From Planctomycetota bacterium (GTDB lineage Bacteria > Planctomycetota > Planctomycetia > Pirellulales > Pirellulaceae): 64,000 bases of DNA. Made by a program: the position numbers and the translations under genes. The stretch covers positions 62,001-126,000 of the forward strand of contig VGZA01000002.1 in assembly GCA_016872775.1 (NCBI GenBank), in the 5' to 3' direction. This document shows positions 18,847 through 24,352 of this stretch, piece by piece (within the stretch, counting starts at the first letter, position 1; every line of letters begins with the position of its first letter). A model generated the notes under the pieces. The model searched no databases. It worked only from the letters and a program-made list of their open reading frames with translations, and had not been told where the DNA came from.

Positions 18847-19995
18847 CTACGCCTCGTTTTTCGATCCTTTTGCCGCTCCCGCCGCGGCCTGCGTCCGGGC
18901 ACAGCCACCCTGGTCCGATGCGGAGATCCCGTTGCGCGGCGGCGGCAAAAGCGCCTGACGCAAAGCTCGCGCGGCACAGCCCGGCTGAACGGCACCAATC
19001 ACCGCCTGACCGACCGCAATCCGAGAAAAACCGGTTTCCAGTACCTGCGAGAGATTTTCGAGTGTGATTCCGCCGATCGCAAACGCCGGGATCCCCGGGA
19101 CAGCCGATTGGACCGCGCCGAGATATTCCAGACCGGGGAAATGCTCGAACTCCTTCGTCTGCGATGGAAACACCGGCCCGCAACCGACGTAGTCCGCGCC
19201 GTCGCGCAGCGCTCGTTCCAGTTCCGGCAAGCTGTGCGTGGAAACGCCAACAATGGCCCCCTCCGGCAGCAGCGAGCGCGCGTCGGCGATCGAAAGATCC
19301 CCCTGTCCAAGCTGAACACCGTCGGCGTCGGCCAATCGCGCCAGATCGGGGCGGTCATTGACGATCAGCAGCGTCGACGTCGAACGCGTCAGGCGGCGGG
19401 CCTGTCGAACCCGCTCCAGCAATGCACGGTCGGGCAACGATTTGTCGCGAAGTTGCAAAAGATCAACCTCCGCCGCAACCAGTTCCGTAACCAGCCGCTC
19501 AAAGTCGGTCGACGATCGTGCACCGTCGACGAGAACACAGAGCCGGCAATCGGCGAGCCGCGGTTTACGATGCAACCGCCGCGCGACCTGCTGGTTCAGC
19601 GCATAGACCCGGTATCGCATCGCCTCGAACTGCTCGCCCCATCCTTCCCGCTGTAGTTTGCTGTATTCCTCCAGACAGCGCAATGCCTGTTCGACCCTCT
19701 TGCCGCTGGCCTTGGCGACGCTGGCGAGCGAATCGCGATGATACTCGCCCGGCGCATCGATCTGCGTTCCCACATCGTGCGGCAGATCGCGTCCCGCCAG
19801 CAGGTGGTCGAGGCTGGGAGCAAGCAGCGCGCAGATTTCATGGCGGATCGCCTTCGCTTCCGCGGCGATCGCGCGGTCCTCGAGCACAAAGCGAGCGAAA
19901 TCCTCGATCACCCGCATACCCTCGACCGCGCGGTTGGCATTCGCGTCCAGGATTCGGAAGACCGTTCGTTGCTCGTTCGGGTCGAATGGCGACAT
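18847..19995 (-). CDS. thiE: Thiamine-phosphate synthase with N-terminal ThiD2-like domain
   Basis: 382 aa from ATG 19995 (AGG 7 nt upstream); a TTG at 20031 would overlap trmB and is less likely. The C-terminal ~210 residues form the ThiE TIM barrel that joins HMP-PP and HET-P to thiamine phosphate: LLQLRDKSLPDRALL, LIVNDRPDLARLADADGVQLGQ, VGVSTHSLPELERA, GADYVGCGPVFPSQTKE and FAIGGITLENL. The N-terminal ~170 residues (RILDANANRAVEGMRVIEDF, QALRCLEEYSKL) resemble the domain described as ThiD2, a monofunctional HMP-P kinase often fused to ThiE. If so, one chain supplies and uses HMP-PP. A ~35-residue low-complexity tail is unusual. It follows trmB by 32 bp. Confidence 0.9.
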   Translation of the reverse strand: MSPFDPNEQRTVFRILDANANRAVEGMRVIEDFARFVLEDRAIAAEAKAIRHEICALLAPSLDHLLAGRDLPHDVGTQIDAPGEYHRDSLASVAKASGKRVEQALRCLEEYSKLQREGWGEQFEAMRYRVYALNQQVARRLHRKPRLADCRLCVLVDGARSSTDFERLVTELVAAEVDLLQLRDKSLPDRALLERVRQARRLTRSTSTLLIVNDRPDLARLADADGVQLGQGDLSIADARSLLPEGAIVGVSTHSLPELERALRDGADYVGCGPVFPSQTKEFEHFPGLEYLGAVQSAVPGIPAFAIGGITLENLSQVLETGFSRIAVGQAVIGAVQPGCAARALRQALLPPPRNGISASDQGGCARTQAAAGAAKGSKNEA

Positions 19996-20027
19996 CGACC
20001 TATTCTCGACCGCCGCGGGGTTAGCTT

Positions 20028-20714
20028 TCAAGGGCCATTCAGATCCGTGCCTGCGGATACGGACGCGTCACAGGGTTGCCGCCGGAATTCGGCTCGAAAA
20101 ACGGCAATCCCCGACAGACGCGACCGGCGTTCAAAATGCGTTCGGTAATCGAGATCGTGCTCCGCGTCCCGCACCGGTACATCGAAGGGGCCCCGCAGTC
20201 CCGTTCCTTCGCGAATCAGGTCCAGGGTGGAATGAAAATACTCTTCGACATCGGTCCAGAAATGGAGCCGGCCGCCGGGAACCAGACTGCGTTCGATCGC
20301 CTGCAACATTTCGGCATGCAACACGCGCCGCTTACGATGCCGTTTCTTCCACCACGGATCGGGAAAGTACACATGGACGGCCGCCAGCGAGCAGGCCGGG
20401 ACGAATTCCCGAAAAAAATGCACCGCATCCCCCGAGATCACTCGGCCGTTTTCCAACCCGGCTCGTGCCAAACGAGCGGCCGCAAAACGCGCATATTTCG
20501 CGCCGATCTCGATCCCCAGGAAGTTACGATCGGGCTGCCCACCCGCCGCTGTTGCCAGGAAGAGCCCCTTGCCGCTGCCAATCTCGACCTCCAGCGGCTG
20601 CTGCACATGGAAAAGCCAGCCGGGCTGCCACGGTCCGACGATCGCATTCAGCTCGATCAGATGACGGCTGAGATCAAGCAATGGACTGATTTTCGGAAGC
20701 GCGCGACGTCCCAT
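20028..20714 (-). CDS. trmB: tRNA (guanine-N7-)-methyltransferase TrmB
   Basis: 228 aa. It uses SAM to methylate G46 in the variable loop of tRNAs. The SAM-binding segment is PLEVEIGSGKGLFLATAA near residues 40-57, followed by FLGIEIGAKYA, and the family signature YFPDPWWKKRHRKRR appears mid-protein, with HFWTDVEEY further on. Length is normal. The gene follows fabZ with a 12-bp gap, part of a minus-strand run of tightly spaced genes. Confidence 0.96.
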   Translation of the reverse strand: MGRRALPKISPLLDLSRHLIELNAIVGPWQPGWLFHVQQPLEVEIGSGKGLFLATAAGGQPDRNFLGIEIGAKYARFAAARLARAGLENGRVISGDAVHFFREFVPACSLAAVHVYFPDPWWKKRHRKRRVLHAEMLQAIERSLVPGGRLHFWTDVEEYFHSTLDLIREGTGLRGPFDVPVRDAEHDLDYRTHFERRSRLSGIAVFRAEFRRQPCDASVSAGTDLNGP

Positions 20715-20726
20715 CAGCTTTCCGCA

Positions 20727-21290
20727 CTAACCTGGCGACTCGGGCCGGGCCATCGCCTGAACGGGAATCGGAACCCCCTTCAGGATTCCTTCGACCACAA
20801 TACGATCGCGAACCACCCCCTGGAATCGGCAGATAATGATCCGCCCCATCCGCACTTTGGTTTCCTCACACATCAGGAACAGTCGGTCGCCGGGGACCAC
20901 CGTATCGCGGAAACGGACTTCCTCCAGACCACCGAAACCGACCACGACGTCTCCCAGCAGCCCGTACTTGTGTGCGAAATAGCTGCAAAGCTGAGCGGCC
21001 GCTTCCAGCATCACGACGCCGGGCATGATCGCCTTTTCGGGGAAATGGCCGCGGACCCAGAATTCGTTTTCCGTAATGTCCTTGTACCCGGCGCAGACCC
21101 GTCGCTGCGGATCTTCGTGCACGATCGCCGTCAACTGCTCCATCTCGAAACGCTGCGGGTTGTGCCGCCGAATCTCGTCCAGATCGGCGATGACGCGGAG
21201 CGGTTCCAGTTCGGACAGTTCGACGATCAGCTCTTTGCCATTCACGGCTTCCACCTTCTCAAGCCTCGAGCAAACACCTCCCGATGGCAT
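20727..21290 (-). CDS. fabZ: FabZ-like 3-hydroxyacyl-ACP dehydratase
   Basis: 187 aa, somewhat longer than a minimal FabZ (~150). A hot-dog fold enzyme that removes water from 3-hydroxyacyl-ACP. The core motif GHFPEKAIMPGVVMLEAAAQ contains the catalytic His (GHFP) and Glu (MLEA). FRDTVVPGDRLFL and the C-terminal beta strands follow. The first ~50 residues (LEPLRVIADLDEIRRHNPQR) include the canonical IxxILPHR-type region in altered form: here DEIRRHNPQR. The start is uncertain; a GTG 45 nt inside the frame is also possible. The altered front and the lipid-related neighbours leave room for a specialised dehydratase. Confidence 0.88.
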   Translation of the reverse strand: MPSGGVCSRLEKVEAVNGKELIVELSELEPLRVIADLDEIRRHNPQRFEMEQLTAIVHEDPQRRVCAGYKDITENEFWVRGHFPEKAIMPGVVMLEAAAQLCSYFAHKYGLLGDVVVGFGGLEEVRFRDTVVPGDRLFLMCEETKVRMGRIIICRFQGVVRDRIVVEGILKGVPIPVQAMARPESPG

Positions 21291-21338: not shown

Positions 21339-21437
21339 CTAGGTCTTGACCTTCCAGCGTTTGGCCCGGCGCGCTTTGGAGTTGGCCGGGCGCTTGCCGT
21401 GGTTGGCTTTCTTGTGGGAACGGTGCGGTTTTGCCAT
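21339..21437 (-). CDS. 32-aa basic protein resembling ribosomal protein bL37
   Basis: The frame runs from ATG 21437 to TAG 21339, and an AGGAG lies 8 nt upstream, a textbook ribosome site. The product begins MAKPHRSHKKANHGKRPANS and ends KARRAKRWKVKT; 15 of 32 residues are K, R or H. The KANHGKRP core is, as I recall it, shared with the tiny mycobacterial large-subunit protein bL37. A ribosome-associated role is therefore likely but inferred from that short motif. The gene sits 11 bp after the MMPL transporter and 48 bp before fabZ on the same strand. Confidence 0.82.
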   Translation of the reverse strand: MAKPHRSHKKANHGKRPANSKARRAKRWKVKT

Positions 21438-21448
21438 CTCGCAAACTC

Positions 21449-24352
21449 CTAAACGGGTCGTATTGCTGTGGATTGACGGGTGCTCGACGGTTCGGCGGTA
21501 CGCCCCTCCGAGTCGGCCCCGGGGAGGGCGGATTCGCCTAAATTACCAGTAAATCCATTTGCTGAAAAGCCGCAGTTGGTCAACAAGGCCGATCCCGAAC
21601 GACGCAGAAGTACCAGGATGGATGGGAGCAACAACAGGGATCCCCCGACACAAAAGAAAATCCCCAAGGTCAAGACCTGCCCCAGGCTGCGGAGTCCGCG
21701 ATGGTCGGCGGCGACCATACTGCAAAAACCGGTCATCGTCGTCGTTGAACAGATTACGATCGACACGACGACCGAATTCGAAATTCGAAAGATCCCCGTT
21801 TGCGAGCGGAAATCGTGCATGACATGAACTCCACTGTCGATGCCAATTCCCAGGATCAGTGGCAGCACGATCATGTTTGCAGCGTTAAATGGAATTCCCG
21901 AATATCCCATCACTCCCAGCAACAACCATCCGGCCAGCGCCAGGGGCACCATCGCCAGCAGCGATTGAGCAAGACTGCGGAAATCGAGCACCAGCACGAT
22001 CACGAGCGCCAAGGCCGCGTAGATCCCGGCGTGCAGGTAGCTCTGCTGCATATGCCGCGATGCATAGTAGGTCTGCACCGGGTGCCCGGTTACGGATTTG
22101 GTCACCGACTCCAAGTCGCGCACGAACGCTTCGAGCTGCTGAAAATCCCAAGAATCACCCCGCGCGAATACCCGCACCAGCATCCGGCCGGACTGGCCGA
22201 CAAGTCGCCGGCGGAGCTCGGGCGGCAAATCCTCCATGGTGGGCGGAGCCGGGTCGCTGATGCGTGCCAGTTCACCGAGCCGCGACCAGAGATCGCTCAG
22301 AAACCGGGTACGGAACTCTGTCGCCCGCCGTCGCAAAATCTCCCGCTGCACGCCTCGCGATAAATCCGAGACCACCGGCAGTTTCCCAGGCCCACCGGCG
22401 GCAGCCGTTTCGGGGCCCAAGTCGTGGCCCGGCCCATTTCGTTGCGCAACGCGCAAGGTCGATTCGGCCCGTTCCAATAATGCTGACGGGGACAAAAGAT
22501 GGTTCGGGGGACTTGGCGGCAACTGGGTCAGCCAATCCTGCACGCGGCCGATCACCGTCCTCTTGGATGGTTCGTTCGCCGGCAATAGACTCCGCAACGA
22601 CTCGGTGCGCAACACCGTCGGCAGCCTGGCGAATGCCTGCTCCAACCGTTCCACTTCCGCCGCGTCCTCCGCCATCGCCACCGCGAACCAGACGTGGTCG
22701 GCGTCCCGCGCGATCAGTTTTTCCTGCAGCCGCGAACTGACTCCGCGCTCGGGTTGCAAATGTAACAGATTATGGTCATAGCGTACGCGAACGACCCCTG
22801 GGGCAGCGAGCAAGGCGAGAGCAGCCAGTCCGGCCAGGGTGAAGCCTGGACGCCTTAACAATGGCTGCAGCCACGTCTGCATAGGCAACGTCGCGGCACC
22901 GGTTCCTCGAACATCCCGCACGTCGGTATTTCGCCGCGCGCGGCGAAATACGGGCGAGCGATTCCGGCAATCGAACCACCAGACGATCGCGGGGAAAACG
23001 GTCAGCGCCGAAGCCAGACATAACAGGATGCCGGTCCCCGCGATCCATCCCAGCTCCGCCACCCCTGTGAATTCGGTTAACCCCGCCATATAGAACGCCG
23101 CAGAAGTTGTCAAAGCACCGGTGATCACACCCGGGCCTACCGAACGGGCCGTTTCCTGTAAAGCCGCTTCCGCCGCAAGGCCCTGCTGCAGGAGCTGCTC
23201 GTACCGCGCGAGGTAATGAATCCCGAAGTCGATCCCTAACCCAATCAGGATAGCGGCAAACGAAATACTGAGAATATTAAGATGCCCGATGGCGATCGTC
23301 ACGAAGCCGAACGACCAGGCCATTCCGACGAACAAGACCACCAGTGTAATGATCGTCGAACGCCAACCGCCGAAACCGGCCAGTAACAGCACCGCCACCC
23401 CGACGAAACTTACAACCGTCGCCACGGTCATATCGAACTGACTCGACTCCATCTCGTCATGCTCCATGATGGGCATTCCCGTCGCACCGATCGTCAGATC
23501 GGGATGCGCCGCTGCGACCTCGCTGACGACTTTCTGCAGCCGTTGGATCGCTGGTGCGCTGCGGATCAACGATTCGTTACTCGGCGGCAGTGCCAACCGC
23601 AGCGTCACAAATCCAAGCGATCCATCCGCGCTGCGAAACGGCCGTGGCCTTAATCCGCGCTGTAGTTCCCCAAAACGGTCCCAGCCGTCCAGCGGCCAAC
23701 GGTACGGTTCGCCCAACATCATTTCCGCAAAGGCCGACGACATCGCCTGAGAGAGCGGCGATTCCGTTCCGTCATGAACAAAACCCCCACCGTCGATCGC
23801 TCCCCCATTCGGCCGTTCCTGGGGACGATCCGCCCGGCCCGGCGGCGATGCGCCGGGTTCCGAAAGGGCGGTTTCGGAATCGTGCAGAAATCGATCAAGT
23901 TCGGCCAGGTACCGCTCGAGCTTCCCCAACTCTTCGGAACTCGCAAAATGGAGCACCTTGGACTGCAACCCGCTGGCATCCACCGCCCAGGCCACCGCTT
24001 CGAACGGCTCGTCGGGCCGGGTCAACGCCTCCGCAAGCGCCCGCTGTCCCGCCTCGATTCGCTCCGAGTCCGCGCCTTCGACGACGACCACCACGTCGTC
24101 CTGCTCCCCAAATTCGGCGAGGTACGAAATCCAACGTTGATTGTATCTGCTTTGGGGATTAAGCAGGTCCAGCCGGTTCGTTCGGAACTCGAGCCCACGC
24201 CAGGTGAGGAGCCCCGCGACGAGCGCACTGAGGGCGGCAGCGATCAAGACCTGTTTCGGGAATTTCAGCACCACCCGCGTGATCGCGCAGATCGGCCATT
24301 CAAAAATCGACTTCGCCCCATCCCTGGGCGCATTGCTTTCCGCTGACATCAT
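21449..24352 (-). CDS. MMPL/RND-superfamily lipid-type exporter (HpnN-like)
   Basis: 967 aa with the duplicated 6+6 helix plan of RND/MMPL transporters. TM1 is at about residues 33-51 (QVLIAAALSALVAGLLTW), then a large periplasmic loop. The first membrane block includes VVSFVGVAVLLLAGFGGW and FAAILIGLGIDFGIHYLARYE. A second TM1-like helix (GFTLAGLAALALLAAPGVV), a second loop and a second block (LILGIGIDSGVHVMHDF, VSIVICSTTTMTGF) follow. The paired GIDFGIH / GIDSGVH motifs carry the proton-relay Asp typical of the family. Such proteins move hopanoids, mycolates or other lipids across the inner membrane. It heads a minus-strand run of the bL37-like gene, fabZ, trmB and thiE. Substrate unknown. 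Confidence 0.9.
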   Translation of the reverse strand: MMSAESNAPRDGAKSIFEWPICAITRVVLKFPKQVLIAAALSALVAGLLTWRGLEFRTNRLDLLNPQSRYNQRWISYLAEFGEQDDVVVVVEGADSERIEAGQRALAEALTRPDEPFEAVAWAVDASGLQSKVLHFASSEELGKLERYLAELDRFLHDSETALSEPGASPPGRADRPQERPNGGAIDGGGFVHDGTESPLSQAMSSAFAEMMLGEPYRWPLDGWDRFGELQRGLRPRPFRSADGSLGFVTLRLALPPSNESLIRSAPAIQRLQKVVSEVAAAHPDLTIGATGMPIMEHDEMESSQFDMTVATVVSFVGVAVLLLAGFGGWRSTIITLVVLFVGMAWSFGFVTIAIGHLNILSISFAAILIGLGIDFGIHYLARYEQLLQQGLAAEAALQETARSVGPGVITGALTTSAAFYMAGLTEFTGVAELGWIAGTGILLCLASALTVFPAIVWWFDCRNRSPVFRRARRNTDVRDVRGTGAATLPMQTWLQPLLRRPGFTLAGLAALALLAAPGVVRVRYDHNLLHLQPERGVSSRLQEKLIARDADHVWFAVAMAEDAAEVERLEQAFARLPTVLRTESLRSLLPANEPSKRTVIGRVQDWLTQLPPSPPNHLLSPSALLERAESTLRVAQRNGPGHDLGPETAAAGGPGKLPVVSDLSRGVQREILRRRATEFRTRFLSDLWSRLGELARISDPAPPTMEDLPPELRRRLVGQSGRMLVRVFARGDSWDFQQLEAFVRDLESVTKSVTGHPVQTYYASRHMQQSYLHAGIYAALALVIVLVLDFRSLAQSLLAMVPLALAGWLLLGVMGYSGIPFNAANMIVLPLILGIGIDSGVHVMHDFRSQTGIFRISNSVVVSIVICSTTTMTGFCSMVAADHRGLRSLGQVLTLGIFFCVGGSLLLLPSILVLLRRSGSALLTNCGFSANGFTGNLGESALPGADSEGRTAEPSSTRQSTAIRPV

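Follow-up and report, generated by a model that had tools for sequence, protein, structure and literature searches.

A 32-codon planctomycete gene matching ribosomal protein bL37, and a bL37-like core in the alveolate mitoribosomal protein mL102

The question raised by this locus is whether an open frame of only 32 codons, lying between a transporter gene and a dehydratase gene in the window (the whole 64,000-nucleotide stretch of planctomycete DNA that was analysed), encodes a ribosomal protein and, if it does, how far the family of that protein extends. A sequence-only reading had described an ATG with AGGAG 8 nt upstream, opening a 32-codon frame within a run of MMPL, fabZ, trmB and thiE genes. 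Both descriptions are correct, with the additions that the frame, whose strand had not been given, is on the minus strand, as are all of its neighbours (Table 1), and that the dehydratase is only FabZ-like, scoring under the NCBIfam cut-offs for FabZ equivalogs. The AGGAG is overlapped by the TAG stop codon (21451–21449) of the preceding MMPL-type gene; the closest NCBIfam models of the latter are HpnN and BstA, for hopanoid and sterol transporters, and its scores are under the cut-offs of both. Neither an Rfam element nor a sigma-70-like promoter was found around the short gene.

Table 1. The bL37 gene and the neighbouring features, in positions of the window
Feature	Positions	Strand	Details
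bL37 gene	21339–21437	minus	32 codons + TAG stop; ATG at 21437–21435, TAG ending at 21339; translation MAKPHRSHKKANHGKRPANSKARRAKRWKVKT
Shine–Dalgarno-like AGGAG	21446–21450	minus	8 nt between AGGAG and the bL37 ATG
MMPL/RND transporter gene, upstream of bL37	21449–24352	minus	Pfam MMPL
FabZ-like hotdog dehydratase gene, downstream of bL37	20727–21290	minus	Pfam FabA, 84 bits
trmB	20028–20714	minus	TIGR00091, 126.8 bits (cut-off 112.65)
thiE, thiamine phosphate synthase	18847–20031	minus	NF002727, 355 bits (cut-off 335)

The family of the protein already has a name. The translation scores 57.8 bits on NF047429 (ribo_Plancto_bL37, an equivalog model whose cut-off is 40), with E 1e-15, and residues 1–32 align with model positions 1–32, that is, over the full length; NF047429 is the family of the window protein, with no difference between the two. 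Pfam is without any model for the bL37 protein. On the model for actinobacterial bL37, NF047428, the score of 17.6 bits misses the threshold of 30, and by its sequence the window protein is a relative of that subfamily and not a member of it. The likeness to mycobacterial bL37 that the earlier reading had pointed out is borne out by the passed NF047429 cut-off and by the shared KANHGKRP core, which is picked up by phmmer, weakly by itself, and also by planctomycete profiles. We used two of these in searches of the PDB: profile A1 includes sequences chosen by a KANHGARP motif, and profile A2 consists only of loci found with NF047429, with KANHGARP spellings excluded. Mycobacterial bL37 chains were recovered at 1e-6 with A1 and at 0.0014 with A2. 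Across 40 aligned sequences, the A, N, G and R of the KANHGxRP core are invariant and the H and P almost so. The suggestion that a bL37-like protein also exists in planctomycetes therefore stands, given the NF047429 match; its implied novelty does not, since NCBI already has a family named for planctomycete bL37, and the window gene thus counts as known.

The resemblance to actinobacterial bL37 (NF047428; PDB 5o60 chain 3, 7kgb chain v and 8crx chain V) consists of the KANHGKRP core following basic residues, and both proteins are short and highly basic. Beyond this, the two differ in layout. The actinobacterial protein has 24–28 residues, about 13–14 of them preceding the core, as a helix in the structure, and few following it, whereas the planctomycete protein has 9 residues before the core and, after it, a basic tail of about 15 that is absent in Actinomycetota. 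The actinobacterial bL37 is described as beginning with a helix of about 13 residues that leads into a loop (PMC5876184), and the core sits in this loop. For the window protein, AlphaFold places a helix at residues 20–30 with modest confidence (mean pLDDT 72, pTM 0.28), and the planctomycete C-terminal tail is probably helical; the predicted helix would then be C-terminal, in contrast to the N-terminal helix of the actinobacterial structures. With N- and C-terminal parts that differ, the homology rests mainly on the eight-residue core.

In Actinobacteria, bL37 occupies a pocket made of H39, H40, the joint of H41/H42, H72 and H89, beneath the tip of the 5S rRNA and close to the peptidyl transferase centre (PMC5876184, PMC10085706). 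By homology, the planctomycete protein would also bind the ribosome, its core filling the same pocket; there the core may tie domain II, the 5S rRNA and H89 together in the manner of a structural staple, and the C-terminal tail may run along the rRNA away from the pocket, comparable to the C-terminus of ciliate mL102. Profile and sequence searches of the PDB found no planctomycete bL37 chain. Taken as a whole, the best explanation of the gene is that its product is bL37, a small and basic large-subunit protein, for which we infer the pocket and the staple role from the relatives; we hold this to be very probable.

With its 32 codons, and an open frame of 458 codons on the opposite strand at the same site, the gene could be suspected of being a chance frame without function, especially as such frames are common in G+C-rich DNA. 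Comparison with relatives leaves this a negligible probability. A search of planctomycete genomes, suggested by the sequence-only reading, returned a matching ORF in 21 of the 21 own- or same-class genomes listed and homologues in about 80 of the 294 Planctomycetota sampled. The same reading had taken conservation of the DNA without the amino acids to speak against a gene, and the codon comparison of the closest relatives gave the opposite pattern: pN (0.11–0.18) is far below pS (0.53–0.95), and for invariant residues as many as five synonymous codons are in use. It is thus the protein that is conserved, with independent codon usage, and this conservation already refutes a chance origin; the match to a curated family also speaks against one. 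Read singly, the homologous ORFs nearly all have an ATG about 9–13 residues ahead of the core and end about 18–25 residues past its start; start, stop and spacing are all conserved, and chance matches to the core are without them. A functional peptide could, on the other hand, act away from the ribosome, as a basic nucleic-acid-binding peptide with the same motif, for example an RNA chaperone or a secreted antimicrobial peptide. The window gene lies outside any ribosomal-protein operon and adjoins metabolic genes, and in disk assays the growth of S. aureus and S. epidermidis is reportedly inhibited by bL37 of C. acnes (PMC10085706). The frame begins MAKPHR, however, with no signal peptide apparent, NCBIfam classes the family as a bL37 equivalog, and the best-conserved residues form the core that is common to ribosome-bound bL37 and mL102; an off-ribosome peptide is, in our judgement, improbable.

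The last alternative concerns the origin of the gene. In the Borrelia ribosome, uL30 fills the bL37 pocket with an N-terminal extension, and bL37 and the short uL30 have been proposed to derive from a longer uL30 (PMC10618245); the planctomycete gene would then be a relic of uL30, a split-off part of the longer protein. Against this, uL30 (PF00327) exceeded the cut-off in none of the 294 Planctomycetota, the genome of the window included, versus 13 positives among 14 control genomes in the same search. Judged by these profile matches, the phylum appears to be without uL30, and the presence of bL37 with no detectable uL30 means that the planctomycete protein is not tied to a retained uL30. A split from uL30 followed by its complete loss in Planctomycetota is possible, and a bL37-bearing phylum without detectable uL30 does constrain the idea of one protein split in two; we regard the relic explanation as quite improbable. 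The same cleft as that of bL37 and the Borrelia extension is also reported to hold Coxiella CLaSP, which is described as dissimilar in sequence and possibly convergent.

With the gene read as bL37, the known range of a protein once described as limited to Actinobacteria (PMC5876184) widens: through the Planctomycetota, into part of the Chloroflexota and probably inside an alveolate mitoribosomal protein. In our sample of 294 Planctomycetota, which includes the genome of the window, NF047429 matched 81 genomes at E 0.01 or better and 25 over its curated cut-off; a broader profile, partly built from these same genomes, matched 89, about 80 of them with E < 1e-4. Credible homologues thus number about 80, and most of those outside the class fall under the NF047429 cut-off; on these scores, the family is wider than the model. 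For many of the sampled Planctomycetota outside the class no match was obtained, and bL37 is therefore either dispensable across the phylum or diverged past detection. At six loci, from Uabimicrobium, a Brocadiia bin and others, we observed a variant of 36–38 amino acids whose N-terminus is longer and whose tail is of the GxGKK type, its layout falling between the actinobacterial and planctomycete ones; two of these were tested, and both scored well under the NCBIfam cut-offs.

A scan for the core across 84,980 species, with one genome each and only the KANHGARP spelling, gave 116 stretches. The stretches in which start and stop were properly spaced belonged to one Corynebacterium and to Planctomycetota, among the latter Uabimicrobium, a Candidatus Brocadiia bin and bins labelled Kuenenia. 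Read singly, the motif matches in Verrucomicrobiota, Proteobacteria, Acidobacteriota, Bacteroidota and Gemmatimonadota had a start and stop spacing that did not fit, and we rejected them as chance. Five bins labelled 'Proteobacteria' or just 'bacterium' (L125, L127, L137, L176 and L182) carry a planctomycete-type bL37 and are probably mislabelled; the contigs L125 and L182 are identical to genomes in the Planctomycetota sample. Credible matches were found in none of 145 genomes of Verrucomicrobiota, and profile matches in none of 190 Alphaproteobacteria, the one motif match there being judged chance. Profile A1 performs poorly on short forms (among 100 Actinomycetota it found 6, the motif search 17), so that absence elsewhere is only moderately supported. 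In the Chloroflexota, 5 of 181 genomes contain near-identical frames of 26–27 amino acids, such as MASTRRRKLKKLRMKKANHGKRPLAGK. The ATG stands 15 codons ahead of the core, near locus position 1500, and each of the five has a dihydroorotase-like frame downstream. On the actinobacterial model, two of the frames reached 22.5 and 28.4 bits, narrowly missing the cut-off of 30, and our literature search found no paper joining bL37 with Chloroflexi.

The neighbourhood of the gene is partly shared across these loci, a set in which the ARP spelling of the core is over-represented. A fabZ homologue lies immediately downstream of bL37 in 60 of the 156 loci with sufficient flank, followed by trmB in at least 37 of the 60, and an MMPL gene lies upstream in 10 of 153. 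The linkage is a habit of certain lineages and reveals little about function; a role based on an operon with fabZ and trmB was considered and dropped, the linkage being frequent and not universal.

The window gene is ordinary for its phylum and its family already named, and it is the extensions of the family that are worth following, above all the less expected result of the analysis, a bL37 core inside mL102. In the PDB searches, Tetrahymena mL102 (6z1p chain AQ) was matched at E 2.4e-8 with A1. As KANHGARP is the spelling of mL102 itself, A1 is circular for this protein, and the search was therefore repeated with A2, which gave E 2.8e-7; with both profiles mL102 outscored mycobacterial bL37, and reversed A2, a control for composition, had no PDB match at E 10. 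The segment of Tetrahymena mL102 can in turn be aligned with the C-terminal end of a mitoribosomal protein from Toxoplasma, matching the large-subunit chains 9g6k UI (named mL184) at E 0.0068 and 9i05 AH (named mL102) at E 0.14, both from depositions of PMC11652630 and PMC11742926; a profile containing both gives 1.3e-8 and 1.1e-6, but does so by construction. The bL37-like core covers residues 61–88 of 6z1p AQ, 365–391 of 9i05 AH and 4–30 of 9g6k UI, and in the ciliate as in Toxoplasma it is joined to an R/K-rich tail (NRNARPPKKANHGARPCSSVMRRLKKK and NPSARYPKKGNKGCRPVCRAMRKIRKR). In these eukaryotes the core is contained within a longer mitochondrial protein, of 109 and 396 residues respectively, whereas bL37 here is a free mini-protein.

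The location of mL102, reported to be between the central protuberance and the L7/L12 stalk with the C-terminus extending toward the A-site tRNA, is compatible with the bL37 pocket. The papers searched do not describe a relation of mL102 to bL37. With no bL37 among the 190 Alphaproteobacteria by profile or motif, no donor was found there, and these searches do not support inheritance from the mitochondrial ancestor; the core of mL102 may have arisen by transfer or by converging on a short motif that binds RNA. We lean towards seeing the bL37 core as a widespread large-subunit module, free in Planctomycetota, Actinomycetota and some Chloroflexota and built into mL102 in the mitoribosomes of ciliates and apicomplexans. 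There it would hold the same pocket near H89 and reach toward the A-site. If true, a supposedly lineage-specific mitoribosomal protein would carry a bacterial ribosomal protein, inherited or transferred, and the link can be checked at once on the deposited structures.
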